This document shows, in pieces, positions 3,760-34,044 of a DNA stretch of 64,000 nucleotides. Within the stretch, counting starts at the first letter, position 1. Each line of letters starts with the position of its first letter. The notes below the pieces were generated by a model. The model made no database searches. It saw nothing but the letters and a program-made list of their open reading frames with translations, and was not told the DNA's origin. The DNA is from Frigoriglobus tundricola (GTDB lineage: Bacteria > Planctomycetota > Planctomycetia > Gemmatales > Gemmataceae): positions 9,486,001-9,550,000 of the forward strand of contig NZ_CP053452.2 of NCBI RefSeq assembly GCF_013128195.2. The letters run 5' to 3'. The translations under genes and the position numbers were made by a program.

Positions 3760-4959
3760 TCACTTCGCTTTCGACTCGTAGCCGTACTTCTTCGCCTGCT
3801 GCTCGACGTACTGCTTGATCCCGGCGTTCTTCGGGTCCACCATGCCCACGGCCTTCTCGGCCGCCGCTTTTGCTTTGGCCCTTTCACCGCACGCGGCCAG
3901 GGCCGCGGCAACCTGAAGGGTGCCCAGCGCGTCCTTGTCACCGGCCACCGCCTTCTCGGCCGCGGCCACGGCCTTCGGCCCGAACTCCTTCGCCTTGGCC
4001 GTGTTCCCCGCGGCGGCGTACGCCTTCGTCGCCCGGATCAGGGCCGCGACCGTCGGCCCGTCGATGGCCAGCGCCGCCTCGGCCGCCCGAACCCCGACCT
4101 CCACGAGTTTCGGTTGCCCGGCGGCGGCCTCGGCCGACAGCACTTCCGCGACGGCGCTCAGCGCCCCCACGTCATTCCGCTTCGCCGCCTTGGTCATCAT
4201 CGATTCGGCCAATTTTTGGGCGTCAGCGAAACGCTTCGCGGACACGAGCAACCGGATGCGGGCGGCGGTCATCTGCGAGTCGGCCGCCAGTCCCGGCCAC
4301 TTGGCCGAGAACTCCTCCCACTGGGTCAACTGGGCGACCGCGTCGCCCGGTATCGTGATCGCCGCGTAGGTTTCGTCCCACAATTTCTCCGCGGCTTCCA
4401 TTTCGGCCGGACCCTTCACAGCGTCCCAGGTTCCGGCCAGCACCTTTGGGAGGACCTCGGAAAGACAGTACGGGTGCCCGATGTAAGCAATTTTTCCGTC
4501 CTTGCCGATCACGAACGAACACGGGATACCAACCTGCCCGGACGCCGTCATGTACGCGTTGAAAGTGTCCGCGTCGTCCGCAAACGCGATCGTGTACCCG
4601 AGCTTGTCCCGGCGCTTTTCAAGAAACTTCACCACGTGCTCCTGGGTGTTCCCGGACGCGTTCGCGGTGAAGCCGATAATCGTGACCCCCTTCGGCCCGA
4701 GTTGCTCCTGAATGTCGCCCAGGTGCGGCATCATGGCCACGCACGGCCCGCACCAGACGGCCCAGAACTCGATCACATACACTTTACCCGGCTCGAACGC
4801 CTTCACCCCCTTGCCGGTCAACCACTTGCTCACCTTTAGTGGCGGGGGCGCGTCGCCGACTTTCAGGGTCGGCAGTTTATTGGCCGGTTTCGGCTCGTCC
4901 GCGGCCGCCAGTCGCGATCCGCCGAGCGCGAGCGCCAGGGTGAGGAGAACAGTTCGCAT
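3760..4959 (-). CDS. TlpA-like secreted thioredoxin with helical C-terminal extension
   Basis: A 399-residue exported thiol-disulfide oxidoreductase. A signal peptide covers residues 1-20 (ends LAAADEP). The thioredoxin fold follows with the active site WCGPC at about residues 69-73 in FWAVWCGPC and the cis-Pro region GIPCSFVIGKDG. From about residue 180 the protein is Ala/Lys-rich and helical, resembling TPR-like repeats. This is common in planctomycete redoxins and probably a binding scaffold. A longer frame exists upstream, but ATG 4959 is preceded by AAAGGTG and starts the signal peptide. The likely role is periplasmic disulfide reduction; the partner is unknown. Confidence 0.85.
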   Translation of the reverse strand: MRTVLLTLALALGGSRLAAADEPKPANKLPTLKVGDAPPPLKVSKWLTGKGVKAFEPGKVYVIEFWAVWCGPCVAMMPHLGDIQEQLGPKGVTIIGFTANASGNTQEHVVKFLEKRRDKLGYTIAFADDADTFNAYMTASGQVGIPCSFVIGKDGKIAYIGHPYCLSEVLPKVLAGTWDAVKGPAEMEAAEKLWDETYAAITIPGDAVAQLTQWEEFSAKWPGLAADSQMTAARIRLLVSAKRFADAQKLAESMMTKAAKRNDVGALSAVAEVLSAEAAAGQPKLVEVGVRAAEAALAIDGPTVAALIRATKAYAAAGNTAKAKEFGPKAVAAAEKAVAGDKDALGTLQVAAALAACGERAKAKAAAEKAVGMVDPKNAGIKQYVEQQAKKYGYESKAK

Positions 4960-5191
4960 CGGGGCACCTTTCGCACGGGAAAACGTACGGCCACACTTTA
5001 CACCACTCCGCCGGTCGAACGAAATGCAGTTACGGTTCTTTGGGGGAACCGAAATCTCGCGATGCAATCATTCCTGCGTTCGGAGATCCGACCGGAAGCC
5101 AGAGAAACAGATGTGACGAAAAGTGTGGCCCGAATCACGTCAAAGGACGGCCCGCCGGGTTCAGCGCACCAAACCGAGCCACGTGAGGCCC

Positions 5192-5857
5192 CTAGCGGCC
5201 CACGATCAGTTTTTTGCCGTTGCGCTGGATGAGTTGCCACCCCTGCTCGGTTCGCTCGATCGATTTCGGCTTGTACTCCTCTGAGACCGACGCGGCGCGC
5301 ACCACGACGTCCCCCGGCCACGGTTGTCCGGCCTTGCCCGGCGGGGTGACATCGTTCAGCAGCTCCGGTAAGCCCGCGGTCGGGGCGGAGGTCGGAAGCA
5401 CGATCCCCTTGACGTCCACAGCCCGCCTCGCCCCGTCCGATGAGACCGCGAGCACCGGCGTGCGGTACACGAGCTTCACGCTCACGGCGTCGGGTGGTTC
5501 GACCGTCACTCCGTCCACACTCAAGACCCAGGGATGGGCGGAGAACGCGGCCGTCAGGTTCGGAACGAGATCGGGATCGATCGACTGGAACGTGGCCGCG
5601 CCGTCCGCGTTGTACCGGACCTCGGCGAGGAACGCTTCGCGGGTGCAGCCGGGCGGCGGGTCGCAGCGGATGTCGGCGAACCGCACGATATAGCGGTCGC
5701 GCGGGCCAATGTTGCGGCGGGCCTCGTCGCCCAGGCGCGACAGCCCGAACAGGAGCGCCCCCGCGACACCGAGCGTGAGGGCCACCGCGAGAACGGGGCG
5801 GGCGGCCCGCCACCCCGACGGGCCGGGCGGCGGGGCCTTCCGGGCACGTTTCACCAC
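5192..5857 (-). CDS. ftsQ: FtsQ/DivIB-like single-pass membrane protein
   Basis: A 221-residue protein with a basic cytoplasmic N-terminus, one transmembrane helix near residues 21-42 and an extracytoplasmic remainder. The order (POTRA-like segment with the IDPDLVP region, then a beta domain with V-x-V-x-E-P-P-D-A-V and later R-x-V-D-V-x-G) matches FtsQ/DivIB, which links the divisome to septal wall synthesis. It overlaps the end of murB by 7 bases. The murB-ftsQ order is the classical division and cell-wall (dcw) order. No ddl, ftsA or ftsZ follows, in line with planctomycetes lacking FtsZ. Similarity was judged by layout and context, so the name is moderately secure. Confidence 0.6.
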   Translation of the reverse strand: MVKRARKAPPPGPSGWRAARPVLAVALTLGVAGALLFGLSRLGDEARRNIGPRDRYIVRFADIRCDPPPGCTREAFLAEVRYNADGAATFQSIDPDLVPNLTAAFSAHPWVLSVDGVTVEPPDAVSVKLVYRTPVLAVSSDGARRAVDVKGIVLPTSAPTAGLPELLNDVTPPGKAGQPWPGDVVVRAASVSEEYKPKSIERTEQGWQLIQRNGKKLIVGR

Positions 5858-6729
5858 ACGCGGAGCTCCCGTTCGAGAGTCACGCCGGTGCGCTCCTTCA
5901 CCTTCGTCTTCACAAGATCCGCGAGCTGCAGAATGTCGCGCGCCTTGACGCCCGGCTGGACGACGACGTAGTTCGAGTTCCGCTCGCTCAGTTCGGCGCC
6001 CCCGGTCTTCGCTTTTGTCATCTGGGCGCGGTCGATGAGCGTCGCGGCCGTCTGCCCCGGCGGGTTGCGGAACAGCCGCACGCCGGCCTGGAAGCTGAGC
6101 GGTTCCGACGCCTTCCGCACGATCCAGGCCGCCCGCATCCGCTTCAGCACCGCGGCCGGGGCCTCCGCTTCGAGTTCGAACTCGACCGCCAGGATCACGG
6201 GCTCGTCGAGGTCGCTCTGGTGCTCGGAGAACGTGAGTTCGTCGCGCCCGCGGACCTGCACCTTGCCCGCGTCGGTCAGGACGGTCACGTTGCGCACGGT
6301 CTGGCTGATCTCGCCCGAACGATCGCCCACGTTGCAGCGCACGCTGCCGCCGACCGTACCGCGGATGCCGACCAGGGTTTCCAGCCCCCCGAGGCCGTTC
6401 TTGACGGAAAACGCGATGAGGTCGAACAGTTGCCCGCCGCCCCCGGCGGTCACGCGCTTGCCGTCACGCTTCAAGAACGTGAACGCCGGCGCGGTGAGCC
6501 GGACGACCGCGCCGCGCACCGGCTCGTCCGGGATCAGCAGGTTGAACCCGCCGCCCAGCATCCGCACCGGTACGCGGTTAGCCTGGCACGCGGAGAGGAC
6601 GGCGTTGAGTTCCTCCACGCTCCGCGGTTCGGCCAGAAACTCGGCCGGGCCGCCGATTTTCAGGTGCGTGAACGGGGCGAGCGGCTGGTCCCGCTTCATG
6701 ATCTCAGGGAACTGCGCGGCGAGCGGCAT
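5851..6729 (-). CDS. murB: MurB-type UDP-N-acetylenolpyruvoylglucosamine reductase, divergent active site
   Basis: A 292-residue FAD protein of the MurB fold, which in peptidoglycan synthesis reduces the enolpyruvyl group of UDP-GlcNAc-enolpyruvate. FAD-binding landmarks are present: THLKIGGPA (21-29), MLGGGFNLLI (57-66) and GTVGG (124-128). The C-terminal Glu-bearing LERE is also kept. Usual catalytic motifs look altered: YRxS is read as EHQS (169-172), and the GSxFxNP serine loop as GVRLFRNP (216-223). It may be a planctomycete subfamily or a protein with changed activity. It is followed by the ftsQ-like gene with a 7-base overlap. Confidence 0.8.
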   Translation of the reverse strand: MPLAAQFPEIMKRDQPLAPFTHLKIGGPAEFLAEPRSVEELNAVLSACQANRVPVRMLGGGFNLLIPDEPVRGAVVRLTAPAFTFLKRDGKRVTAGGGGQLFDLIAFSVKNGLGGLETLVGIRGTVGGSVRCNVGDRSGEISQTVRNVTVLTDAGKVQVRGRDELTFSEHQSDLDEPVILAVEFELEAEAPAAVLKRMRAAWIVRKASEPLSFQAGVRLFRNPPGQTAATLIDRAQMTKAKTGGAELSERNSNYVVVQPGVKARDILQLADLVKTKVKERTGVTLERELRVW

Positions 6730-6983
6730 GAGTGCCTCCTTGCCCTTACTTTATTGTGCCGGGCGCGCCGCGCGTAGCCGCGATACGCGCCCGCGGTGGT
6801 ACGGGCGCTTCTGCCGAGCCCCGCGCGGCGCGCGGACAACGGTGCGGTGGCTACCGTCTGTGCCTGCTGCGAAGGCGGTTCGGGGCTGGCACGTGCCCCG
6901 CGCCGCGAGCCCGTTTCGCGGCGTGTTCATTTTTCCGACCGCGCATAGGGTACTCACCGTTCCGATCTTCTGCCGAGGTCACG

Positions 6984-8402
6984 ATGACTCCCGACGAGTT
7001 CCGAGAGTACGGCCACAAGCTCATCGACTGGATCGCCGACTACCGCGCGACCATCGCCGCGCGACCCGTGCGCGCGACCACGGCCCCGGGCGAGGTGCGG
7101 GCGGGCCTACCGAGTGAGCCGCCCGCAGAGGCGCAACCGTTCGACGCGATTCTCACGGATTTCGAAGCCAGAATCGTTCCCGGCCTCACGCACTGGCAGC
7201 ACCCGCGGTTCTTCGGCTACTTCCCCGCGAACGCCGCGTTGCCGAGTGTGCTGGGGGACCTGCTGAGTACCGGGCTCGGCGTACTCGGGCTGAACTGGCA
7301 GGCGTGCCCGGCGCTGACGGAGCTGGAAGAACTCACGTGCGATTGGGTCCGTCAGATGGTCGGGCTCTCGGCCGCGTGGAGCGGGGTGATTCAAGACACC
7401 GCGTCCACCGCGAGTCTGCTCGCCCTGCTCTGCGCGCGCGAGCGGGCGAGCGACTTTTCCCTCGTTCGCGGCGGGATGCAGGCGGAAGCGAAGCCGCACG
7501 TGGTTTACGTATCCACCCAGAGCCACAGTTCCATCGAGAAGGCCGCGCTCCTCGCGGGCTTCGGCAGGGAGAACGTGCGGGCCGTGCCGGTTGATGAGAA
7601 GTTCGCGCTACGGGCGGACGCACTCGACGCCGCGATTCGGGCGGACCTGGCCGCGGGAAAGGTGCCGTGTGCGGTCGTTGTGACCACGGGCACCACGGCG
7701 TCCACGGCCCTCGACCCCGTCGCCGCCGTGGCGGAACTCGCCGGCAGGTACGAGCTGTGGTTGCACGTCGACGCGGCGATGGCCGGGTCCGCGATGATCC
7801 TGCCGGAGTGCCGGTGGATGTGGGACGGGGTCGAGCGGGCGGACTCGATCGTCTTCAACCCGCACAAGTGGCTCGGCGCCGTGTTCGATTGCTCGCTGTT
7901 TTATGTTCGCGACACGGAGCACCTGATCCGCGTGATGTCCACGAGCCCGAGTTACCTGCGCACGGCGGCCGACGGCCGGGCCACGAACTATCGCGACTGG
8001 GGCATCCCGCTCGGCCGCCGGTTCCGCGCGCTGAAGTTGTGGTGCCTGATCCGGTCCGAAGGGGTCAGCGGGTTGCAGGCCCGGCTCCGGCGCGACATCG
8101 CGAACGCCAAGTGGCTCGCCGAGCGCGTCGCGGCCACACCCAATTGGCGCGTGGTCGCCCCGGTCCCGCTCCAGACGGTGTGCCTCCGGCACGAGCCGCC
8201 GGGCCTCGCGGGCGAATCGCTCGACAACCACACACGCGCCTGGGCCGAGCACGTGAACGCGTCCGGGGCCGCGTACCTCACGCCCGCCGTTCTTGACGGC
8301 CGGTGGATGGTGCGCGTGTCGGTCGGGAGCCTCACGACCGAACGCGCGGACGTGGACGCGCTCTGGGGCGTCATGCGTGAAGCGGCGGAAACGGCCGGCT
8401 GA
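6984..8402 (+). CDS. Pyridoxal-phosphate-dependent group II decarboxylase
   Basis: A 472-residue enzyme of the aromatic-L-amino-acid/tyrosine decarboxylase family. It has the N-terminal MTPDEFREYG start typical of these enzymes and the substrate-site region HWQHPRFFGYFPAN. HVDAAMAGSA contains the PLP-binding Asp, and NPHKWLG carries the Schiff-base lysine near residue 295. Length matches the family. It removes the carboxyl group of an amino acid, probably aromatic, giving an amine; substrate cannot be fixed from sequence. The frame is open far upstream, but ATG 6984 has CCGAGG just before it and gives the family start. It is divergent from murB across a 254-base gap. Confidence 0.88.
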   Translation: MTPDEFREYGHKLIDWIADYRATIAARPVRATTAPGEVRAGLPSEPPAEAQPFDAILTDFEARIVPGLTHWQHPRFFGYFPANAALPSVLGDLLSTGLGVLGLNWQACPALTELEELTCDWVRQMVGLSAAWSGVIQDTASTASLLALLCARERASDFSLVRGGMQAEAKPHVVYVSTQSHSSIEKAALLAGFGRENVRAVPVDEKFALRADALDAAIRADLAAGKVPCAVVVTTGTTASTALDPVAAVAELAGRYELWLHVDAAMAGSAMILPECRWMWDGVERADSIVFNPHKWLGAVFDCSLFYVRDTEHLIRVMSTSPSYLRTAADGRATNYRDWGIPLGRRFRALKLWCLIRSEGVSGLQARLRRDIANAKWLAERVAATPNWRVVAPVPLQTVCLRHEPPGLAGESLDNHTRAWAEHVNASGAAYLTPAVLDGRWMVRVSVGSLTTERADVDALWGVMREAAETAG

Positions 8403-8532
8403 GGACGAGCGCCGCGCAAATCTGAACGGGAACCGATTGATCTCGTGACCGGTCTCCATAGGAGTTCACATGGGCAGATCTCAAGAGATCGGCCCGGTAC
8501 CGTCCGAATCGTGGTCGCGGAGATCGGTCGCC

Positions 8533-9468
8533 ATGCAACGCATCGCATCGCACGGCTTGGTGAAATGGGCGCTCACCGTGTTCGCCATCGTGGCACCCGG
8601 GGGCGCCGCCCGGGCCGACATCGGGATCATCTCGCCGGCCGAGGCCAAGAAACTGATCGACGCGGCCGAACCGGCGCAGCGGCCGATCGTGCTCGACACC
8701 CGCGGGGGCTACAAGGACTACTTCCGCGGCCACCTCCCGACCGCCCATCACATCAACTTCGACACCCTGCGGGGCACGGACCACGGCGTGCCCGTCCAGT
8801 ACCTCCCGGACGACCTGACCCGGGCGCTGCTCGTCCGCGCGGGCGTCGAGAAGGACCGGATGCACCTGATTTATGCGACCGGCGACAAGCTTCCGAACGA
8901 CGAGATCCTCAGTGCCAGCATGGTCGCTTACGTCCTCGAGAAGTACGGCGTGCAGAACATCCGCATCGTGGACGGCGGGTTGCCCGGGTGGACCAAGGCG
9001 AAGCTCCCGGTCACGCAGGAGTACTTCGGCAACCCGAAGGGGACGCTCCCGGAGAAGGGCGACCCGGGCATCGCCCTGACCGTGGACGACGTGCTGAAAC
9101 GCAAACCCGGCGCGGTCCTCGTGGACGCCCGACCCGCGAACGAGTACCTGGGCGACGACGACATCTGGCTGCGGAAGGGGCACATCCCCGGCGCGATCAG
9201 CTTCCACTGGGCGCGGCTCATGGAGAAGGACAACACCCACGCCTTCCTGCCGTTCGAGAAGGTGAAGGCCGACCTGGCGGCGGCGGGGCTGACCGCGGAC
9301 AAGGAGATCCTCGTGTACTGCGGCACGTCCCGGGAGGGGAGCCTGTTGCGGTTCTACCTGAAGCACGTCGCGAAGTACCCAAACGTGCGGCTCTACGAGG
9401 GCTCGTGGAAAGAGTACGTGGCGCTCAAGCACCTCCCGGCCGAGACGAAGGCCAACAAGCCCAAGTAA
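8533..9468 (+). CDS. Exported two-domain sulfurtransferase (rhodanese)
   Basis: A 311-residue tandem rhodanese. The first ~29 residues form a signal peptide (ends GGAARAD), which decided the start at ATG 8533; an in-frame ATG at 8470 would bury it. The N-terminal rhodanese domain lacks the catalytic loop (ATGDKLPND instead of a Cys loop). The C-terminal domain has VYCGTSREGS with the active Cys near residue 263, so only the second domain is catalytic, as in thiosulfate and 3-mercaptopyruvate sulfurtransferases. It probably moves sulfane sulfur outside the cytoplasm. A PiT-type permease starts 9 bases downstream, so the two are likely cotranscribed and functionally linked. Confidence 0.85.
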   Translation: MQRIASHGLVKWALTVFAIVAPGGAARADIGIISPAEAKKLIDAAEPAQRPIVLDTRGGYKDYFRGHLPTAHHINFDTLRGTDHGVPVQYLPDDLTRALLVRAGVEKDRMHLIYATGDKLPNDEILSASMVAYVLEKYGVQNIRIVDGGLPGWTKAKLPVTQEYFGNPKGTLPEKGDPGIALTVDDVLKRKPGAVLVDARPANEYLGDDDIWLRKGHIPGAISFHWARLMEKDNTHAFLPFEKVKADLAAAGLTADKEILVYCGTSREGSLLRFYLKHVAKYPNVRLYEGSWKEYVALKHLPAETKANKPK

Positions 9469-9477
9469 GAGCGCCGC

Positions 9478-10431
9478 ATGACCGTCCCGGTTCTCGTTCT
9501 CGCCGTCTGTTTCGTCGCGTTCACGAACGGGGCCAACGCCAACTTCAAGGGCGTGGCCTCTCTGTACGGCAGCGGCACCACGACCCTCCGCCGGGCCGCT
9601 CTGTGGGGCACCGCGACCACGTTCGCGGGGTCCGTCGCGGCTCTGTTTATCACGCGGGGGATGTTAGCGGCCTTCAGCGGTCGGGGCATCGTCCCGGACG
9701 CCCTTGTCGCAGCGCCGGAATTTGTGTGTTCGGCGGCCCTCGGCGCGGCGTTCACGAGCTTCCTGGCGACCCGGTTCGGGTTCCCCGTCTCCACGACACA
9801 TGCCCTGGTCGGCGCGCTGGCCGGAGCGGGTCTGGCGGGAAGCGGCGAGGTCTGGTTCGCCGCTCTGGGGAAAAGCTTCCTGTACCCGCTCCTGTTCAGT
9901 CCCGTCGTCTCGGCGGCGGCGGGGGCCGTCGTTTACGCGCTCCTCAAGCGGTGCCGCCTGGCGCCGGACCGCCGCACGCCGCTCCTCGACCGCCTGCACT
10001 TCCTGAGTACCGGGGCCGCGAGCTTCGCGCGCGGGGTCAACGACACGCCGAAGATGGCGGCCCTGCTGGTGGTGATACCGTCGTTCGAGCTGCGCGGGGG
10101 CTTCCTGCTCGTGGCCGTGGCGATCGCGCTGGGCGGCCTACTCGACGCCACCCGGGTCGCGGAAACGCTGGGCAAGAAGATCACCGGGATGAACCCCGGT
10201 CAGGGCTTCGCCGCCAGCCTCGTGACAGCCGGGTTGGTGACGACGGCGAGCCTGCACAGTCTGCCCGTCAGTACGACGCACGTCAGCGTGGGCTCCCTCG
10301 CGGGAATGGGCCTCACTGCAGGCAGGGTGCACGGACGCAAGGTCGCGGAGGTCCTGCTCGCCTGGGTCACGACGGTGCCCTGCGGGGCCGGACTGGCCGC
10401 GGTCGCCTACGAACTCGTGACGCGGTTCTGA
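9478..10431 (+). CDS. PiT-family anion permease (phosphate, or sulfate/thiosulfate)
   Basis: A 317-residue integral membrane protein with about nine or ten hydrophobic segments in the inverted-repeat layout of the inorganic phosphate transporter (PiT) family. The second repeat keeps the signature FARGVNDTPKMAALL. The first repeat reads TNGANANFKG, where classical members have a GAND-type core, so one acidic residue is missing. HALVG and STTHVSVGSLAG correspond to the other PiT motifs. PiT relatives such as Bacillus CysP carry sulfate, and the gene lies 9 bases behind a secreted sulfurtransferase. Sulfate or thiosulfate is therefore a reasonable alternative to phosphate. No phosphate-specific regulator is nearby. 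Confidence 0.82.
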   Translation: MTVPVLVLAVCFVAFTNGANANFKGVASLYGSGTTTLRRAALWGTATTFAGSVAALFITRGMLAAFSGRGIVPDALVAAPEFVCSAALGAAFTSFLATRFGFPVSTTHALVGALAGAGLAGSGEVWFAALGKSFLYPLLFSPVVSAAAGAVVYALLKRCRLAPDRRTPLLDRLHFLSTGAASFARGVNDTPKMAALLVVIPSFELRGGFLLVAVAIALGGLLDATRVAETLGKKITGMNPGQGFAASLVTAGLVTTASLHSLPVSTTHVSVGSLAGMGLTAGRVHGRKVAEVLLAWVTTVPCGAGLAAVAYELVTRF

Positions 10432-10512
10432 TGTCGATCGCGGTTCGACTCGACGACCGATCCGCACCTCCGGCGCCTAGAATGGGAGTGCCCAAGTCTC
10501 TGGAGCCCTCGC

Positions 10513-10977
10513 GTGACACTTCCGACCACGAATGCCGACAAGTCCCGTGTTTCGTCCACCGGATACGACCTCACCCCGCTCGCGGTCGAGGAACGTGACC
10601 GCTTGGCCGCGTCGCTCACACCGGACGAACGACGCGTGTTACTGCACCAAGGGACGGAACCAGCGTTCTGCGGCGGGCTGCTCGGTAATAAGGAAGTCGG
10701 GGTTTACGCCTGCCGGCTGTGTGGGCTCCCGCTGTTCCGATCGGCGGCGAAGTTCGAATCCGGGACCGGGTGGCCGAGCTTCTACCAGTCGTTCGACCCG
10801 GATCACGTGGCGGTCCGCTCGGACACCAGCCACGGCATGATCCGCGACGAGATCGTCTGCGCGCGGTGCGGCGGGCACCTCGGCCACGTCTTCCCGGACG
10901 GACCGGCCCCGACCCGGCTGCGATATTGCCTCAACTCGGTGTCGCTGGCGTTCGTACCGGTCGGGCAACTGGGATAG
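10513..10977 (+). CDS. msrB: Peptide methionine-R-sulfoxide reductase
   Basis: A 154-residue MsrB that reduces the R-diastereomer of methionine sulfoxide in damaged proteins. Zinc-site pairs are visible as YACRLCG and CARCGGH. The core motif FESGTGWPSF is intact, followed by GHLGHVFPDGP and the catalytic Cys near residue 139 in LRYCLNSVSL. Length is normal for a single-domain MsrB. Translation probably starts at GTG 10513, which has TGGAG at 10501-10505. The gene stands 81 bases after the permease gene and may be transcribed alone; an msrA partner is not present. Confidence 0.93.
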   Translation: MTLPTTNADKSRVSSTGYDLTPLAVEERDRLAASLTPDERRVLLHQGTEPAFCGGLLGNKEVGVYACRLCGLPLFRSAAKFESGTGWPSFYQSFDPDHVAVRSDTSHGMIRDEIVCARCGGHLGHVFPDGPAPTRLRYCLNSVSLAFVPVGQLG

Positions 10978-11079
10978 TGAAGACGGCACAATTATGTGGC
11001 TTCCGCACCACACATTAACGCCGAAGCCGAGAGGTGCTCGAGACGCTCCTCGCGGCTTCAGATGTTACCCGATCTTGAC

Positions 11080-11580
11080 TCACGGCTGCTGGGGGGCGGG
11101 ACTGTTTGCTGGAGGGGGTGGGAGCGGGTCCGCACTCGGCACCTGAGCCGGAAAGGCTCTCAGGTTTGCTTCAGGTGCGGGGTAGGGACTGGCGGGTGAG
11201 GGAATGGCTGGCGCTTCTGGCTTCCCGCTGAAGCTATCCATCCGCACCTTCAATTTGTTGACTTTCTCCTGAAGTACCTTCAGCATTGCCTTGTTTTTCT
11301 TCTCTCGCTCGGCGATTTCGTCGCGCGTCTTCTCCATCGCCTCGATCAACTGCTCAATGGTCAGGTCTTCCGGCTTAACCTCTTTGGCCACAGACGCTGC
11401 GGGAACAGATATCGTCGGCGGTACGAATCCGGGTGGAACCCCGCCGTGCGAAGGGGGTGGAAGCGCCACTCCTGTCCCGACTGGATGGACTGGCATGGTC
11501 GCGTTTTGCTGTTGAGCAACCGTGAGCCCGGCGGCTGCCAGCAGAAGGGCCGTTACGACGATCAGGGCACGCTTCTTCAC
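11080..11580 (-). CDS. Small secreted coiled-coil, proline-rich protein
   Basis: A 166-residue protein of unknown function. The start is GTG 11580, chosen because GGGAGG lies just upstream and because it begins a good signal peptide (VKKRALIVVTALLLAAAGLT, cleaved near VAQQQ). The middle (about residues 70-110: EQLIEAMEKTRDEIAEREKK and onward) is a charged coiled coil. Both flanks are rich in Pro, Ala and Ser, and the end is PAPQQP. It looks like a periplasmic or surface structural protein. The only neighbour on this strand is ogt, 131 bases upstream. No enzymatic motif is seen. Confidence 0.65.
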   Translation of the reverse strand: MKKRALIVVTALLLAAAGLTVAQQQNATMPVHPVGTGVALPPPSHGGVPPGFVPPTISVPAASVAKEVKPEDLTIEQLIEAMEKTRDEIAEREKKNKAMLKVLQEKVNKLKVRMDSFSGKPEAPAIPSPASPYPAPEANLRAFPAQVPSADPLPPPPANSPAPQQP

Positions 11581-27671: not shown

Positions 27672-29349
27672 GGGTGTAGGACCGCATTTGCGTGCAGTTG
27701 GGGTTGGGCTACAACGGTGGGTGGCAAATCCCACTCTGAAGTTCGCCCCAAGTGCAAGGCAGGACGGCCGATGGCGAAACGCAAACTGACGCCTGAGCAA
27801 TTGGCGGCTGTGGAAGAACTCGCCAAGCAGTGGGGTAAAATCGTTGCCAAGAACGCCTACGGCGAGGGCGGTCCGGCGCGCGATGTGGACTTCGACGAGA
27901 TGGAGCAGATCGCCGCTGCGGCCACGCGGGGGCTGGCCCGAGGGACGCTCGAACACCTCACACAGCAACAAGCCCAACAACTCCCCACCGAGCTCTCGTG
28001 TCCCACGTGCCAGAAGCTCTGTTCGGTCCGAAGCCGATCCCGCGAGGTCGTCGCACGCGGGGCAACGATCACCCTTCACGAACCCGTCGCACACTGTCCC
28101 GCCTGCCGCCGGGACTTTTTCCCCCCAACGAACCAACCTCAAACTTGATGCCCACGGGTACAGCCCCTCGGTACTTGCCAAGATCGTCCACGTCGGGGCC
28201 GTACTCCCGTCGTTCGAGTTGGCCGCCAAGACGCTCCGACTGCTGGCCGAGGTGTCGATCAGTGGTCGGCACGTCGGGCGATTGACCGAAACCATTGGTG
28301 CCGAGTTGGCCGCCCGACGCGACGAACACGCCGAAGCCCACCGGCGGCGTCAACTCGACGCGCAGGTTCCGAACGTGCCGAGCGTGGTGGCCGTTGAGGT
28401 CGATGGCGGTCGCTACCAGCGCCGCGCCGAGGGGCAAGGGTGTGGGGCGCGAGATCCGCATTGGCGCGAGGACAAGGTCGCGTGCCTGGTCACGTTGGAG
28501 GGTCCGACGTGCGAGACCGACCCACAACCCGAACCGCCCGAGTGCTTCCTCGACCGCAAGCACGTCGGGAACATGACGCAGTGCTCAGCCACTTGCGAGC
28601 CCACAATAGGAAGCGCATCCGCTGAATCGAAGGCCGTAGCCCAACCCGATGCGCACGCCTGGCAACCGGAGCGGTTGGTGCGCACGTGCGTGGCGACGAC
28701 GCGCGACAGCGAAGCGTTCGGTCGATTGGTGGGTGCGGAAGCGCAGGCGCGGAACTTCGGGGCGGCGAGTCGTCGTGCGTTCGTGGGCGACGGCCAGGCG
28801 TACAACTGGGCGATCCAGACGCGCTGGTTCGCGGAGTACGTGCCGGTGGTCGACTTCATCCACGTGCTGAGCTACGCGCGGCAAGCGGCGCGTGCGACCG
28901 GTGGAAGCGATGCCGAGCAGTGGGACCGATACGCGCGCTGGATGCGGGGGTGCTGGCAGGGTCGGGTGTCCGAGGTACTCGGGGAGATGGATCGTGAGCA
29001 AGAACGGATCGGCGAGCCACCGGAGGGCGCCGAGGACACGGACGGACGCGTGGTGCTGGCACGTGCGCGTGGGTACTTGAGGAATAACGCGGAGCGCATG
29101 AAGTACCCGGAGTACCGCAAGGCCGGTCTGCCGGTAACGAGTTCGTGGGTGGAGTCGTTGATCAAGGAGATCAACTACCGAGTCAAGGGCACCGAGAAAT
29201 TCTGGAACGAGGACGGGGCCGAAGCGGTGCTGCAAGTGCGCGCCGCCGCGCTAAGCGACGATGAACGGCTCGATAAGTACCTCGCCGCTCGTCCCGGGTC
29301 CCCATTCCAGCGGCGAGCGGCGGCCTGATACATACCCGGTCTTACACCC
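27672..29349 (+). mobile_element. ISKra4-family insertion sequence (1678 bp)
   Basis: The element is bounded by 13-bp terminal inverted repeats with one mismatch: GGGTGTAGGACCG at 27672-27684, and the complement of GGGTGTAAGACCG at 29337-29349. It is flanked by a perfect 9-bp duplication, CGTCTTCAT. Ends beginning GGG with 9-bp duplications fit the ISKra4 family as I recall it. It carries one transposase reading frame in two phases and is inserted in a gene of the opposite strand. The near-perfect ends and exact duplication suggest a fairly recent insertion. Confidence 0.9.
27771..29328 (+). pseudogene. ISKra4-family transposase, split into two reading phases
   Basis: The first phase (27771-28148, 125 residues) starts MAKRKLTPEQLA and holds a zinc-finger-like part with CPTCQKLC and CPACRRDF. 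The second phase (entered near 28122, ending 29328) starts TNLKLDAHGYSP and includes AVEVDGGRYQRR, FVGDGQAYNW, VDFIHVLSYARQAA and VTSSWVESLIKEINYRVKG, which resemble catalytic regions of ISKra4 transposases. The phases meet at a TTTTTCCCCCC run (28116-28126). One C fewer would give RDFFPQRTNLKLD, a continuous product of about 518 residues. It is either a broken gene, a +1 recoding site or a homopolymer error. No other lesion is seen. Confidence 0.8.
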
Positions 29350-31000
29350 CGTCTTCATGGCGCGTGCCTTCCGATACTTCTCTCGTGCGAACGTTGACCA
29401 CACGAACCGCAGGTACGCGCCCCGGCGCTTTGTCCGATCGCGGAGTGGCGTAACCGAGACAGGCGACGAGTCGCCCGTTGGGAGACGGCAACGCCCATGC
29501 GGGGCGCAGTTCGGGGGTCGCCAACCGCTCCGGGTCACCGCCCCGAAATGGTACCCTCGATAGCACAAGGTTTGCCGGTACGTAGTTCTGCGTGAACAGC
29601 CATTCGCCGTCGGGTGAAATCCCGCACAACATCTGCCTAACGTCGATACGGGGCGAGCTGTCGCGATCCCCCAGGCTCGACGTTTTCTTGGTCTCCGCAT
29701 TGAACATGGAATGCAGGACGAACGCCTTCATCGTCATCGGCTCAGCCTTGATGACGCCCTTACCGTCTGGGAGCCAGTGGAACCAGCCGTGCGGATTGAG
29801 CGGAATGTCGGTCGCGGTGACATCCCCTTTGCCGGTGACGTCCTGATAGTGGAGCCTGCATCCGTTAAGCCAGAGTGGCTCTTCGCCAGCGGGCTTGTTC
29901 CTTGGTTCACCAGCCGTCCCGGCGAACATGACCTTCGTGCCGTCGTCGGAGAAGCCGAAGAAGTGACCCGGACAAGCCACCTCCTTGACGTTCGCACCGT
30001 CAAGGTTGGTGCCGGTGACCTTGCCGGCCTTCGGGTCGTAGGTCCAGATCAGACCGGTGCGGGTATCGAGATACGCGTCGCGCGCATTGATTTCCGTCAC
30101 TTTCTTCCCGCTCGGCTTGTACGCGACGAGCTTGTGACGTTTCTCGTGCTTGAGCCAGATCACACCGGGATCGGGCGAGTCCTTGGGTACCGGAGCGGCG
30201 GCGCTCTCGCCCCCACGCCGGCCACCGAACACGAGTAAGACCACCAGTACTGCGAGCGCGGCACACACTTTTAACGTCGCCAAAAGCGTGACCTCCGTCC
30301 CTGAATGAGGAAGCAGGTGCAATCGCGACCCCGGCGGCACCTGTCCGACCGCAGTCGCGACGGTCGCCGCGTGCAGTCGCTCCGGTACTATTGTGACGGC
30401 CACGGCCATTGCTGGTGACACGCCCCGCGATGTCAACCGCTCGGCGAGTTTCTTGCGCGCCGCCGCCAGCCGACTGCTGAGCGTCCCCTCCGCGATTCCC
30501 AACTTCTCCGCGGCCTCTTTCCGGCTGAGCCCTTGCAGTTCGCAAAGGACAACTGCCTCACGGAGCGCGGACGAAAGCGCGGTGATCTCCTCGTCCAACA
30601 CGCGCACCGCGTCGTCCGGCACCTGTGGCGGTGTCGCCGTCTCCGGTACGGCACGGGTCAGCGTTTCGTGCCTCCGGCGCCGGCCGAGTCCGTCACGTGC
30701 CCGCGTGGCCACGTTCACGGCGACCCCGTACAGCCACGGACCGAGCCGGCGCGTGCCGTCCAGCGCATTCGCTTTCCGTGCCAGCACCAGAAACGTCGCC
30801 TGAAACGCGTCGTCCGCGAGATGAACGTCCGGGACGATGCGCCGGCACGTCGCCAGCACGAACCGGCCGTAGCGCGCCACCAGTCGCGCGAACGCCTGCT
30901 CGTCCCGATCCAGCACGAACCGGCGGAGCAGTTCGCCGTCGGTCTCGGGTTGCAAGAGCTGGAGAGCGGTACACAGGCTACCGAATTTCTCTGTGAACAT
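29342..31000 (-). pseudogene. ECF sigma factor with membrane-anchored beta-propeller, truncated by IS
   Basis: The N-terminal ~180 residues are a planctomycete-type ECF sigma factor: region 2 with FARLVARYGRFVLATCRR and DAFQATFLVLARKA, and region 4 with LQGLSRKEAAEKLGI and GTLSSRLAAARKKL. A transmembrane helix follows (VCAALAVLVVLLVFGG), then an extracytoplasmic TolB/WD40-like propeller. The frame stops two codons into the IS (HEDGV, stop 29342-29344). Joined to the fragment at 27397, the intact protein would be about 638 residues. The start at 31000 is preferred for its GAGGG; ATGs at 31027 and 31030 are alternatives. The sigma domain and anchor survive, so a truncated product might still act. 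Confidence 0.88.
29350..29358. repeat. Target site duplication, right copy
   Basis: CGTCTTCAT follows directly on the IS terminus ACACCC and matches the copy at 27663-27671 exactly. Confidence 0.93.
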
Positions 31001-31165
31001 ACCGGCCCTCGCGTGTCCAGCCAGCATCATACTCCCGCGACCCGGCGCGGCGCGTCGGTGAAAACTGGCACCTGCCCCGTGCCCGAATAGTGAAGTGGTC
31101 GCGCTCTGTTGAAACGGGAACCCGATACGAGGAGGCTGAAGACCGACTGCGCCCCGGTTCGGCGC

Positions 31166-32281
31166 TCACGATTTCTTCCGGCAGTAGGCGCGGGCGGCGT
31201 CCGTGACGTGCTGGTGGAACAACCAGCCGTAGCCGTTGCGCTCGTACTGGAGCAGGACGTCGTTCGTCGTCAGGTTGTACTTTTTCGCGATCGACTCCAG
31301 GTTCCAGTCGTGGTCAGCCAGTTGCTTGAGCAGGTACGCCCGCCGGGTTTGTGCGGCCGACAGCCGGTACGTCTTGAGGTACTGGAGGGAACCGTCCGGC
31401 GCGACGATCCGCTCGCCGATGTGGTTCTCGTCGCTCGGGTTCAGACTGCCGATGAACCGTTCGAGCCGGAACGGCCCGGCCTCGTAAACGGTCTCCGCCG
31501 TCACCGGCACGTCCAACAACCCGATCGAAGCGGTGCGTCCGAACGCGGCCCATTCCTGGCGCATCAGTTCCACAGCGGCCCGCAGGTCCGTGAGCGTCCG
31601 GATCGACTCCGGTCGGGCCGGAAAGTCACACGGCGGAAGGCTCGGGTACATCACGGCGTACTGCCAGATCAGTTCGCCGAAGAAGTCCTGCAACAGCGAG
31701 TCGTGAAGCGCGCGGTAGTCGTCCGGGTGCGGCGTCACGAACGCCGTGGCCAGCGCGTCCGCGACGAACACGAGAACGCCCACCTGCCCCTCGTGTATCT
31801 CGAACACGCGCAGGGCCTCGTCGAACCCTTCGAGCGCCCAGCCGGCAACCGAGCGTTCGACCCGCGGGCTCATCCCCCTGGAAATCGCCTCGCGCGAGAA
31901 ATAGCCCCACTGGACCGTTGGCCCGCCGAAGTGCAGCGCGAGGAGCCCCTCCATTGCCAGGTGCAGCGGAAGAAAGCGCAACCGGCGGCCGTCCTGCCGC
32001 TTGGCCATGCGGTGGAACACACCGGCGGGAACCGCGGACTGTGTCCGCACCTTGTTGAGCTGCGCGCCGAGAGAGGCGACCGGGGCCGAGCTATCGGCCC
32101 ACTCCAGGACCAGGGCGTGCGGGATGTAGCTCGTGTAAACCGCCCCGGGCAGCCGCACGGCGTACCCCGATTCCTTCGACAGCCCGAGCCGCAGGTCCGT
32201 GCGAAAGGTCGGGCGCAGTAGCGGCACGAGGCGGAACGCGCCGCACACCTGCGACGGGGCCAGGATCAGGTCATTCAACAT
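31166..32281 (-). CDS. Protein of unknown function, partner of the vWA protein
   Basis: A 371-residue soluble protein that I do not recognise with certainty. It starts MLNDLILAPSQVCGAFRLVPLL and is an alpha/beta protein with no signal peptide or membrane helix. A C-terminal segment (LKQLADHDWNLESIAKKYNL, then TTNDVLLQYERNGYGW) looks like a helix-turn-helix. Its start lies 10 bases inside the end of the vWA gene, so the two are translationally coupled and probably act together. It could belong to the ARPP-type domains described beside TROVE/vWA and ADP-ribosylglycohydrolase genes, but I cannot verify this. A longer upstream frame was rejected because it would run through the vWA gene. Confidence 0.6.
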   Translation of the reverse strand: MLNDLILAPSQVCGAFRLVPLLRPTFRTDLRLGLSKESGYAVRLPGAVYTSYIPHALVLEWADSSAPVASLGAQLNKVRTQSAVPAGVFHRMAKRQDGRRLRFLPLHLAMEGLLALHFGGPTVQWGYFSREAISRGMSPRVERSVAGWALEGFDEALRVFEIHEGQVGVLVFVADALATAFVTPHPDDYRALHDSLLQDFFGELIWQYAVMYPSLPPCDFPARPESIRTLTDLRAAVELMRQEWAAFGRTASIGLLDVPVTAETVYEAGPFRLERFIGSLNPSDENHIGERIVAPDGSLQYLKTYRLSAAQTRRAYLLKQLADHDWNLESIAKKYNLTTNDVLLQYERNGYGWLFHQHVTDAARAYCRKKS

Positions 32282-33650
32282 GATCCGCCTCCGTTCCCGT
32301 CGCAAGGAACTCTTCGGCACGGCGGTCCAGAAACGATTCCAGATCGGCCCGTGTGACGGTTCCCGTTGCGAACCGGGCGAACGCCAGTGCCGTCGGCAGA
32401 CTCTCCGCATCGCGCAGGCCGACGGTGGGCACCCCTTCGGCCAGAGCGCGCGGCGCGTAGTCGCTGGCCGAGAAGACGGGGTTGAGGTGAACGATGGACA
32501 CACGGCCCTTCGGGTCGAGGTGCGACTGCCAGTACTTCAGTACGGCGCTCCCGCCGCCCGGCGGGTCGTTCACCACGGCGTCGCTGACGATCACCAGCAG
32601 TTCCGGAGCCGTGTCCAGGGCGTCGAGGATCGGCGTCGAAAGGTCGGTCGCTCCCCGCGCCGCGGGTTTGACGCCCGGGAACGGGTGGGTCCAGAACGCG
32701 CGGTACTCCCGACTTGCCGCTGCCAGCACGCGATCCACGGCCCACGCGACGCCGAGCGGCCGCCGCTTCTTCTCCTGAGTCCCGGACGCCGAGTAGCTGT
32801 TGTCGAGTACGGCCGATACTTTACCGAGCGACAGCGGCGAACTCCGGAGGAGCCGGACCGTCGCGCGGCTGATGGCAGCCATCACTTCTTCTGTCAGTTC
32901 CGGAAGCGACAGGGCGTAGAGCACCAGCTTCGTGAGTGGCGAGCGGCCGAGGTCGATTTCGACCTCGCCGGACTTCTGCACCCGCAGTTTCTCGGTTTGT
33001 GTCATGCGGGGCCGGATTTTCACCAGGAACTGCTCGCGCGGAATGCGGTGCTTGGCGGCCAGCCCCTCCGCGACCGTGAACGGCAACTCGTAAACGGCCT
33101 CGGCGCTGTGCCACGCCCGTCGCACCTGCTCGAAGAGCGGCGTCTGGAACACGGCCACTCGCTTCTCGAAGAGGAACCGCCCCGCTTCGCCCGGCAGCGA
33201 GAGGTGGTTGTGGCACGCGACCGCCTTGACCTTGTTCCGGTACTTCACGCAGTCGAACACAGCATCACGCCCGCGCATATAGTCGCGCACGATGGCCCGC
33301 GTGCGTCGGTTGTTGATCCCCAGGCGGCGGACATCGCGGAGCGTCTTCCAGGCGCGCTGCGGCGGCATCGTCGCCAGCGCGCGGGCGATCAGCGCCCCCT
33401 CTTTCGGTATGGCCTCCTTCCCGGAGGCCAGGAGCCGGAGAATGATTTGCGACTGGTTGAAGTGGTTAATCCCGACCGCCAGCGAGCGGGCGTAAACGGA
33501 ACGGTAATTTACCAGCACGTACTGGTGGAGGAAGTCGATCGACACGCGCTGGCTGTTGGCGTTCTCGTAGAACTCGCGCTGACCGGTACACGCGTAACAA
33601 GCGTTGAGGAAGTGAACGATGTCTTCACGTTGCGTCCGCTCGGCGAACAT
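32271..33650 (-). CDS. vWA-domain protein, possibly TROVE/Ro60-like
   Basis: A 459-residue soluble protein. The N-terminal ~260 residues are helical and basic (MFAERTQREDIVHFLNACYA, then repeats of short helices with RNNRTR-like basic patches). The C-terminal ~190 residues form a von Willebrand A domain with an intact metal site: DNSYS (DxSxS), the Thr of ATDLST, and Asp in VIVSDAVVND. A helical RNA-binding ring plus MIDAS-bearing vWA domain is the layout of bacterial Ro60 (TROVE) proteins, which bind Y RNAs and structured RNA. I judge similarity by layout only. ATG 33650 has GGAAGGG upstream. It overlaps its partner gene by 11 bases. Confidence 0.65.
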   Translation of the reverse strand: MFAERTQREDIVHFLNACYACTGQREFYENANSQRVSIDFLHQYVLVNYRSVYARSLAVGINHFNQSQIILRLLASGKEAIPKEGALIARALATMPPQRAWKTLRDVRRLGINNRRTRAIVRDYMRGRDAVFDCVKYRNKVKAVACHNHLSLPGEAGRFLFEKRVAVFQTPLFEQVRRAWHSAEAVYELPFTVAEGLAAKHRIPREQFLVKIRPRMTQTEKLRVQKSGEVEIDLGRSPLTKLVLYALSLPELTEEVMAAISRATVRLLRSSPLSLGKVSAVLDNSYSASGTQEKKRRPLGVAWAVDRVLAAASREYRAFWTHPFPGVKPAARGATDLSTPILDALDTAPELLVIVSDAVVNDPPGGGSAVLKYWQSHLDPKGRVSIVHLNPVFSASDYAPRALAEGVPTVGLRDAESLPTALAFARFATGTVTRADLESFLDRRAEEFLATGTEADHVE

Positions 33651-33921
33651 GACGACCCTTCCGGGTGCCGCCCGCCGCCGGGGAGTGACGATGCGACTTT
33701 GAGCTCTCACTTCACAGGTAAGTTCGGAAGTCGCAGCAAAGTCCCGCGACGGCGGGGCGGCTCAGGTAGTCTACACGAGACGTTCATCAGACGCGCCGGC
33801 GAGGGCTCAGGTTCACCGCGCTGGCAACAGACCTCTGTAGCGCGGCCTTTGTTTTCGACACGGGTTTGCTTCTCCCGGCGCGACACGGTCTTGTCGTTTT
33901 CCGTAAATGATTCCGTCCGGG

Positions 33922-34044
33922 TCACCCAACTGCCGACGCAGAACCCGTACTAGGGGTCGCGGTCGTTGTTGGCTTTTCGTCTACCGTGCCGGAACCAGAC
34001 GCGCTCAGCAGGAGTACGGTCGCAAGGAACGTGATCGTTTTCAT
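33922..34044 (-). CDS. 40-residue secreted peptide
   Basis: A very short gene. The peptide begins MKTITFLATVLLLSASGSG, a good signal peptide, followed by a Thr/Ser/Ala-rich tail (TVDEKPTTTATPSTG). The ATG has GAGG at a spacing of eight bases. It starts 25 bases after the ispD stop codon on the same strand, so it may be the last gene of that operon. Signal-bearing peptides of this size are common but rarely annotated in planctomycetes. Codon use fits the local GC bias. Function is unknown. Confidence 0.5.
   Translation of the reverse strand: MKTITFLATVLLLSASGSGTVDEKPTTTATPSTGSASAVG

Follow-up and report, generated by a model that had tools for sequence, protein, structure and literature searches.

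Ro60 is a major human autoantigen. Its primary site on Y RNA is described as a cytosine that bulges from the terminal stem (PMC4030889, cited in part). By 2020, Deinococcus radiodurans was the only organism in which the function of bacterial Ro60 and Y RNA had been studied, according to the cited part of PMC7790460, which also describes rtcBA genes beside Ro60/Rsr of Salmonella. YrlA, a bacterial Y RNA, is characterised as tRNA-like in the section cited of PMC8394870. Proteins of the ARPP type, whose activity is a prediction only and for which an absolutely conserved cysteine is reported, have published gene pairings with HIRAN, WYL and a deacetylase, in addition to their presence in ARG systems (from the portion of PMC9503650 cited here). 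MoxR-vWA systems are found mainly in multicellular bacteria, as stated in the cited part of PMC7159879.

The locus described here lies in a stretch of 64,000 nucleotides (the window) from Frigoriglobus tundricola, contig NZ_CP053452.2. A first-pass annotation had placed two genes with an 11-base overlap in this region (31166-33650), and ORF calls reproduced both on the minus strand. That range ends just short of a structured RNA (Table 1). The element adjoins the gene pair and is what is new here; it is without an Rfam match in the sources searched. We consider it probable that the locus is a three-part module in which an unrecognised Ro60-like ribonucleoprotein has a Y-like RNA of its own and is joined by a partner of the ARPP type. 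Translation of the two genes is likely coupled through their overlap; a GTG 60 bases upstream of the vWA-protein ATG lies in the same frame.

Table 1. Features of the Ro60-like locus (window coordinates; "(-)" denotes the minus strand).
Feature	Position	Strand	Description and basis
Possible -10 hexamer	33768..33773	(-)	TAGACT; upstream of RNA 5' end; sequence
Y-RNA-like structured RNA element	33671..33755	(-)	~85 nt; bulged C in terminal stem, then inner stem and small head; covariance model R1
TROVE-fold vWA protein	33650..32271	(-)	ATG start, 459 aa; ORF calls
Parts of TROVE-fold protein			Predicted helical ring domain (~residues 1-270) and vWA domain with complete MIDAS; AlphaFold2 model, Foldseek/VIA matches to Ro60, invariant residues
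Overlap of vWA and ARPP-2 genes	32271..32281	(-)	11 bases; ORF calls
ARPP-2 partner	32281..31166	(-)	ATG start, 371 aa; PF22549 match; C-terminal HTH-like segment by HTH_8 in relatives

The ARPP-type identity proposed earlier for the second protein was confirmed by its match to PF22549 (ARPP-2; E 8.4e-100, 333.8 bits vs a cut-off of 27). An ARPP gene adjoins the vWA homologue in all 18 loci examined, the window's own included (17 pairs came from one search and the eighteenth, L049, from PF22549 plus a profile); since every locus has both genes, their pairing is not due to chance. A weak 78-residue match (G253) was not counted as a relative. The module is sparsely distributed and crosses phyla. 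The window's branch is referred to as class A, and a sister branch with an ARPP-1-type partner as class B; both class-B partners run against Pfam were ARPP-1 (PF20208), and the three examined (L048, L058, L063) have a C-x-QQ motif in common. No conserved cysteine column is present in ARPP-2, the commonest reaching 6/16 rows of alignment A6 and 6/20 rows of A3. The HTH-like end suggested for the partner held at the family level, Fis-type HTH_8 scoring above the Pfam cut-off in one of 10 partner C-termini and below it in four more, but not for the window's own ARPP-2, whose C-terminus gave no HTH match. The structure model of ARPP-2 is poor (mean pLDDT 66.8), and this low-confidence model matched nothing in the PDB below E 0.001. 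The pair is found on plasmids in Nostoc, and a TerD gene lies near the Alkaliphilus pair.

The first-pass annotation had also suggested looking near the operon for a Y-RNA-like RNA. Such an element is found just upstream of the vWA gene and shows strong compensatory pairing. The window's RNA scores 87.1 bits against covariance model R1, being itself one of the 12 copies used to build the model. R1 finds the RNA in 22/22 class-A loci, 10 of them outside the model-building set. In 21 sequences, the 5' and 3' ends form the terminal-stem pairs in 96.7% of 273 cells; two-sided changes occur in 53 cells, compared with 16.0 in shuffles (0/500 shuffles reach this number), and are seen at 8 of the 13 pairs. 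All 22 RNAs have a single unpaired base in the terminal stem, which is not strictly cytosine across the family (C in 17, including the window's, and U in five), and all have a folding z below -2. At its 5' side, the terminal stem of the window's RNA can be lengthened by a few bases. The quoted counts are from alignments A9 and A10, because A11 includes four antisense rows; both omit L019, whose RNA was found later, and A10 consists of 12 elements picked for equal inner-stem spacing. Rfam yielded no family at gathering scores for five sources, nor at E up to 10 for the window and L060 elements, curated Y RNA families included. Upstream coding was rejected as the cause of the conserved leader: in L008 a single-base indel disrupts the reading frame, and the conserved stretch runs past the GTG.

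Loci with the class-A RNA occur in Planctomycetota, Cyanobacteria, Myxococcota and Actinomycetota. Among 294 genomes of the window's phylum, strong RNA matches were found in five, those with the class-A protein, while a cyanobacterial set of 244 genomes gave 14 RNA places in 12 genomes, all beside the protein gene. As the large genome searches scored the best 15-18 candidates per genome under stricter filters, weak RNA copies may be missed; one copy (G392, 36.1 bits) was caught by a second look only. A weak match found apart from the protein (G250, 32.1 bits) was treated as chance. At a diverged pair in the cyanobacterial set (G586), the class-A RNA model reaches just 15.6 bits, and a locus whose gene is cut by the contig end (G395) stands outside the tally. 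Phage records, and viral contigs searched with one RNA pattern, gave no match.

Model R1 detected no class-A-type RNA at the five class-B loci. Three of these (G246, G054 and G007) have Y-like stems enclosing wholly or partly tRNA-like bodies. Between 3 and 5 units stand together, and four of the 11 (U1, U3, V1 and Wa) are matched by tRNA models. A pattern search for such units in G064 and the Alkaliphilus plasmid found none.

Because the class-A RNA ends ~15-66 nt before the assigned gene start in 21/22 loci, on the same strand (alignment, rather than a start codon, fixed the starts of L047, L052, L054 and L055), it could be a cis-acting mRNA leader controlling translation or transcription, perhaps autoregulated by the encoded proteins, with no stable partner RNA involved. 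Scant space for a separate terminator in most of these loci also counts in its favour. We nevertheless regard this as rather unlikely. Two genomes of the cyanobacterial set (G548 and G381) have two tandem RNA copies each, with differing heads; L019 keeps an intact RNA despite ~390 nt of repeat-rich DNA between it and the gene; the class-B units of G007 lie downstream of the gene pair; and in G233 and G289 the terminal stem is immediately followed by T-runs. Furthermore, a TANNNT hexamer is enriched 9-15 nt upstream of the RNA (15/22 loci); the window's TAGACT sits 18 nt upstream, beyond the range counted. The tandem copies and the -10-like hexamer favour an RNA that is transcribed on its own.

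The TROVE/Ro60-like layout initially proposed for the vWA protein was borne out by structure prediction. The AlphaFold2 model of the 459-aa protein (pLDDT 86.8, pTM 0.84) displays a TROVE-like ring, and its top 11 Foldseek matches in the PDB are all Ro60/TROVE (best E 3.4e-7), with moderate TM-scores of 0.37-0.60 by query and rmsd of 6.7-10.8. A structural match to Ro60 covers 397/459 residues (Z 16.6, rmsd 4.8), whereas the best chain other than Ro reaches Z 11.8 over 159 residues, and three named Ro-like/TROVE proteins rank within the top 12 of a viral library comparison. The MIDAS is complete (D283-x-S285-x-S287, T335, D357), and none of the five residues varies among the 19 sequences aligned, of which the window's is one. 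Alignments A4 and A5 omit L019, in which the vWA gene is split between two frames, and A4 omits L062, which has an internal stop.

Profile alignment against 14 TROVE proteins scored 81.4 (E 1.1e-9), a value reached by 0/100 shuffles of the helical part; a rotated control, with the helical part shifted by 60 columns, scored 79.2, close to the real value. Class A alone scored 57.4, and in an earlier comparison with eight TROVE proteins the vWA part alone aligned. A helical-only profile gave no significance against the TROVE helical domain (E 0.065). This last result and the rotated control make the sequence evidence for the ring weak, so the case for its homology is carried by the predicted fold. 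Pfam TROVE (PF05731) detected 0/19 family members at E up to 1, and the window's genome had no match to it (E up to 0.001). The vWA protein got no family name from Pfam, NCBIfam, PADLOC or PHROGs, and PDB sequence searches with it returned nothing useful. In human Ro60, histidine H187 is required for Y RNA binding. H149 aligns with this residue in the profile alignment, two residues off the invariant H147, and is absent from class B. Taken as a model, the predicted fold supports identification of the vWA protein as a diverged Ro60/Rsr-type ring, HEAT-like helices closed by the vWA domain.

The Ro60 likeness might conceivably reflect a common helical-plus-vWA arrangement, the vWA protein being a peptide-binding co-chaperone of a conflict system with ARPP as the effector. 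The cited part of PMC9503650 reports vWA domains as peptide-binding chaperones in ARG neighbourhoods, where ARPP also occurs, and plasmid carriage in Nostoc and the TerD gene of Alkaliphilus would suit such a role. This interpretation appears improbable given that the full-length Ro60 match is well above vWA-only matches, that a dedicated Y-like RNA is present, and that no third gene such as MoxR is common to at least four genera among the matches listed for 19 neighbourhoods. A toxin-antitoxin-like system, with one of the two proteins kept in check by the structured RNA, would account for a compact, plasmid-borne module of RNA and two genes sparsely spread across phyla; this seems very improbable, as Pfam, NCBIfam and PADLOC give no toxin family for either protein, and the class-A RNA is usually single-copy, with no repeat array. 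That the element is a DNA hairpin (a mobile-element end or recombination site) and not an RNA is scarcely credible: inverted repeats and plasmid carriage would allow it, but the unpaired bulge is conserved, the inner structure is asymmetric, G-U pairs occur, the strand is constant with respect to the gene, and a -10-like hexamer is present, all of which speaks against it.

Computed results are the gene pair, the TROVE-like predicted fold and a conserved structured RNA linked to the two genes; separate transcription of that RNA, its binding by the ring, an activity of ARPP-2 and a part in RNA quality control or defence against invaders are what we infer for the Ro60-like module. The Y-RNA-like RNA would be transcribed from just upstream of the vWA gene and dock on the ring via its bulged terminal stem, which would gate or tether the ring. 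ARPP-2, as the coupled partner, might then act on, or report, RNA captured by the ring, probably damaged or misfolded species such as tRNA pieces, and its HTH tail may pass the signal to transcription. A function in RNA quality control or conflict would fit the context. What appears to be a Ro60-like protein beside its own uncatalogued folded RNA suggests a hitherto unrecognised branch of an ancient machine for RNA handling. Much more tentatively, one could envisage a whole Ro RNP branch, carried from phylum to phylum in part by plasmids and coupled to ARPP, with two RNA solutions (compact stem-bulge in class A, small tRNA-like decoy arrays on Y-type stems in class B), that would sense tRNA or RNA-end damage (cleavage or ADP-ribosylation) in conflicts and answer via ARPP and the HTH tail. 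If true, the module would add a Ro60 branch overlooked by family models, a new RNA family present in four phyla, and a genetic connection that ties Ro-type RNPs directly to ARPP proteins; it would also make the role of Ro RNPs testable in small two-gene-plus-RNA systems.

Among known systems, the MoxR-vWA ternary conflict systems resemble the locus in having a vWA protein, in some cases with an N-terminal helical domain (PMC7159879, part cited); they differ in that no MoxR ATPase or other third gene is common to at least four genera among the matches listed for our 19 neighbourhoods. The partner is a strong ARPP-2 (PF22549) match, although the cited portion of PMC9503650 names neither a TROVE-fold partner nor an RNA among the ARPP associations. 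The class-B units of G246, G054 and G007 are like YrlA, as depicted in the cited section of PMC8394870, in that a large terminal stem carries a tRNA-like domain, but are unlike it in being grouped by 3 to 5 and in matching tRNA models in 4/11 cases; the class-A RNA has a small hairpin head and no tRNA-like domain. Its terminal stem followed by an inner stem is the Y RNA ground plan, albeit outside any Rfam family. In contrast to the rtcBA genes of the Salmonella Rsr operon (PMC7790460, part cited), the window's partner is ARPP-2. The window's protein, at 459 aa, is shorter than solved Ro60 chains (~460-540) and is missed by Pfam TROVE, yet it shares with Ro60/Rsr the predicted helical ring and C-terminal vWA domain with MIDAS, in the same order, and, beside its gene, an RNA with a terminal 5'-3' stem and a bulged pyrimidine.

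The first-pass annotation had placed a vWA gene and an overlapping partner gene in this part of the window, and both are found there on the minus strand, sharing 11 bases. Its candidate family for the partner, ARPP, was borne out by a Pfam search, in which the product matched ARPP-2 with an E-value of 8.4e-100 and ARPP-1 weakly. The vWA protein has no NCBIfam or PADLOC family and drew one below-cut-off model from Pfam; Pfam TROVE has no match in the host genome (assembly of 9.86 Mb). The nearest named relative among those found is the vWA protein of Limnoglobus roseus (Gemmataceae, Planctomycetota), which is 83% identical. Downstream of the pair lies a gene for an ECF-type sigma factor whose C-terminal extension is long, not among the listed pair neighbours common to at least four genera. 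A 40-codon ORF with a signal-peptide-like start, spotted by eye between ispD and the RNA element, is possibly a gene remnant.

Positions of the genes, RNAs and neighbouring features
Feature	Source	Position	Strand	Remark
vWA protein gene	window	33650..32271	-	459 aa ORF
ARPP-2 partner gene	window	32281..31166	-	371 aa ORF; overlaps vWA gene
RNA element	window	33671-33755	-	about 85 nt
40-codon ORF	window	33922-34044	-
ECF-type sigma factor gene	window	29342-31030	-
tRNA array leading into class-B pair	L076 (G246:C74)	5386-11315	one strand	ARAGORN, 25 tRNA genes
Class-B RNA units	L048 (G007)	8316-8841		downstream of ARPP-1 gene; three Y-like or tRNA-like variants, two recognised by eye
Two hairpins	L058 (G064)	1084-1233		upstream of class-B vWA gene
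XisH and XisI genes	L060 (Nostoc plasmid)	9457-10196
XisH and XisI genes	L062 (Nostoc plasmid)	9478-10217
vWA gene with one stop codon	L062 (Nostoc sp. UHCC 0926 plasmid)	8001-9410
TerD-family gene	L063 (Alkaliphilus plasmid)	6147-6914		upstream of class-B pair
Diverged vWA and ARPP pair	L098 (G586)	4552-6911		cyanobacterial set

A structure model of the vWA protein, built from 19 aligned sequences, was confident (pLDDT 86.8, pTM 0.84). When it was compared with solved structures by Foldseek, each of the first 11 matches was a Ro60/TROVE protein, at E-values from 3.4e-7 to 3.2e-3 and moderate TM-scores (0.37-0.60 by query), and three named Ro-like/TROVE proteins stood within the top 12 from a library of viral models. 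VIA-align superposed 397 of the 459 residues on Ro60 (Z 16.6, 4.8 A); the best non-Ro chain, the vWA domain of NorD, gave a Z of 11.8 over 159 residues. The TROVE/Ro60-like fold suggested at first pass thus holds at the level of the predicted model. The link is weaker by sequence than by predicted fold. In a comparison with 8 TROVE proteins the vWA part only aligned. A profile of 14 TROVE proteins gave a 359-column alignment with the family (E 1.1e-9) at a score of 81.4, the vWA part alone scoring 66.1; class A alone (ARPP-2 partner, stem-bulge RNA) scored 57.4 and class B alone (a sister branch with an ARPP-1-type partner) 73.5. Profile alignment of the helical parts alone with those of TROVE was not significant (E 0.065). 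Shuffling the helical part 100 times never reached 81.4 (the highest score was 76.9), and a control with this part rotated by 60 columns still scored 79.2 against the real 81.4. In the 14-protein alignment, K136-Y137 coincides with the K-Y of TROVE, and H149 with the counterpart of human Ro60 H187 (human numbering obtained by counting), a residue required for Y RNA contact according to the available part of PMC4030889. Given the predicted-fold match and the weaker sequence link, we name the product a predicted TROVE-fold protein outside the Pfam TROVE family.

With each species represented by one genome, a scan located 13 loci for a vWA relative in Planctomycetota, Cyanobacteria, Myxococcota/Deltaproteobacteria and Actinomycetota; additional relatives came from other genomes, three Nostoc plasmids and one Alkaliphilus plasmid. 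An ARPP gene neighbours the vWA gene in all 18 loci checked, the window's own among them (17 from one comparison, and locus L049 by PF22549 and a profile). The same holds for the four plasmids and for loci L058, L076 and L095-L099, in a tally that leaves out L052, L054, L055 and L079-L094, whose flanks are short. On the Alkaliphilus plasmid the adjoining gene is a DUF6569 gene, which aligned with ARPP partners and which we take to be ARPP-1. Among the matches listed for 19 neighbourhoods, no other gene beside the pair was common to at least four genera. A tree places class A, with ARPP-2, in 20 rows and class B in 5, divided by one branch with support of 91/97 at which several long branches join. 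The class-B partner was ARPP-1 by Pfam in both loci tested, L048 and L058; for genomes G054 and G246 it is assumed to be so from tree position. XisH and XisI genes lie between the vWA and ARPP-2 genes on two of the Nostoc plasmids, and in one of these (L062) the interrupted vWA gene is missing from the gene table, the ARPP-2 gene is annotated and the RNA scores 92.3 bits. The diverged pair of genome G586, on a very long branch and without the class-A RNA, is perhaps a third class.

In the available part of PMC9503650, ARPP is proposed to act on the ribose of ADP-ribose via a conserved cysteine. A C-x-QQ motif is present in all three class-B partners examined, and the ARPP-2 sequences aligned hold no conserved cysteine; the residues invariant in 16 of them are Q11, G14, P20, P54, G72, P105, W125, F160, E161, Q166, G168 and L233. 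The HTH-like end ascribed to the partner at first pass was recovered as a Fis-type C-terminus in some relatives, with none detectable in the window's own protein. Since it lacks the cysteine and has this end in some relatives, ARPP-2 may act in sensing and regulation and not as a cysteine enzyme.

Just upstream of the vWA gene, the DNA of the window, genome G008 and Limnoglobus is more similar than the flank beyond and holds inverted repeats and one frame-breaking indel. This DNA, near the operon where the first pass proposed looking for Y-RNA-like transcripts, holds a structured RNA element with a bulged terminal stem, whose shared form is G[C/U]GGGACU ... CCG ... UCCCC within a variable stem. 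The window's element has a folding energy of -59.2 kcal/mol, its shuffles one of -43.7 (z -3.96), and all 22 class-A elements fold with z < -2 (mean -4.06), the bulged base being C in 17 and U in 5. In an ungapped alignment of 21 sequences, 96.7% of 273 terminal-stem cells are paired, falling to at most 62% when the partner is slid by 1-3 columns. Two-sided changes occupy 53 cells against 16.0 in shuffles (0 of 500 as high); less striking among the five measures, with shuffles that ignore relatedness, are the 8 pairs with such changes against 5.9 (14 of 500) and the 19 further pair types against 16.7 (82 of 500). Among the 12 sequences whose spacing is equal, 91.7% of inner-stem cells are paired, and 2 of 8 pairs show two-sided changes. 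Rfam gave no match at gathering scores in 5 sources, nor up to E 10 for the window element and a Nostoc element.

A covariance model made from 12 elements matched all 22 class-A sources, including ten outside the model-building set, and no class-B source out of 5; the four weak antisense matches fall on the elements themselves. When 294 genomes from the window's phylum were searched, strong matches came from the five that encode the class-A protein, two of them at elements on which the model had been built, and the class-B genomes G054, G246 and G064 gave no strong match. Genome G250 has a weak match (32.1 bits) without the vWA protein. In the cyanobacterial set the RNA was found in 12 of 244 genomes and all 14 RNA places adjoin a vWA relative, those of G346 and, judged by its identical coordinates, G524 being loci counted already. 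The protein is present in 15 of the 244. Of the three genomes by which this exceeds the RNA tally, G392 has the RNA at 36.1 bits, the G395 locus is cut by a contig end, and at the diverged pair of G586 the model reached only 15.6 bits. In the Actinomycetota set the protein occurs in 2 of 246 genomes, search centre included, both with the RNA. Canonical TROVE loci with short flanks yielded no convincing match (0 of 14; best 16.3 bits). Because the large searches scored 15-18 candidates per genome, weak copies may be missed.

The 3' end of the element lies about 15-66 nt before the assigned vWA start in 21 of 22 class-A loci (in L047, L052, L054 and L055 assigned by alignment, not start codon), and a leader role for the mRNA is possible given this short distance. 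The gap of about 390 nt at locus L019 and tandem copies in genomes G548 and G381, two in each with differing heads, speak for an RNA of its own; a search of 18 genomes or plasmid records found one strong copy apiece. A -10-like TANNNT hexamer precedes the RNA by 9-15 nt in 15 of 22 loci, against 9 in the best such window of 1000 base shuffles, an enrichment overstated because some loci are closely related; three Gemmataceae loci, the window's among them, have it slightly beyond this range, at 18 nt. Genomes G233 and G289 have a T-run directly after the stem.

Class-B pairs are accompanied by other RNAs. In G246 the pair is preceded by the tRNA array, all 25 genes of the 12.5-kb contig lying on the pair's strand and one falling inside a composite unit. 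Five such units adjoin the pair, with GGGACU or GGGAACU after the outer stem strand, GACC-N-GCA before the closing strand, and a tRNA-like or partly tRNA-like body between. Three more, one recognised by eye, lie upstream of the G054 pair, and the terminal stems of the G007 units reach about 15 bp. Models of tRNA match 4 of 11 units (U1, U3, V1 and Wa). The units' own arms pair better than swapped arms (0 of 20000 permutations as good), which supports real stems but does not prove them, because pairing is weak between the arms of V1 (-4.5 kcal/mol), the choice of units was partly by eye, and they may share ancestry. The two long, nearly perfect hairpins at L058 are unlike the other RNAs.

A function in stress or conflict would suit the carriage on plasmids (of the three from Nostoc, two were typed conjugative), the sparse distribution and the TerD gene next to the pair in Alkaliphilus. 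Among the matches listed in the literature searched, in the portions available, the protein-RNA-ARPP module is not described, and earlier notice is possible. By analogy with Rsr and Y RNA, as presented in the available parts of PMC8394870 and PMC7790460, RNA ends would be held by the ring, with the Y-like RNA lying on its outer face or tethering a partner; ARPP-2 could be this partner or signal what state the ring is in. The class-B layout is similar to that of YrlA, a stem plus a tRNA-like domain in the available part of PMC8394870.
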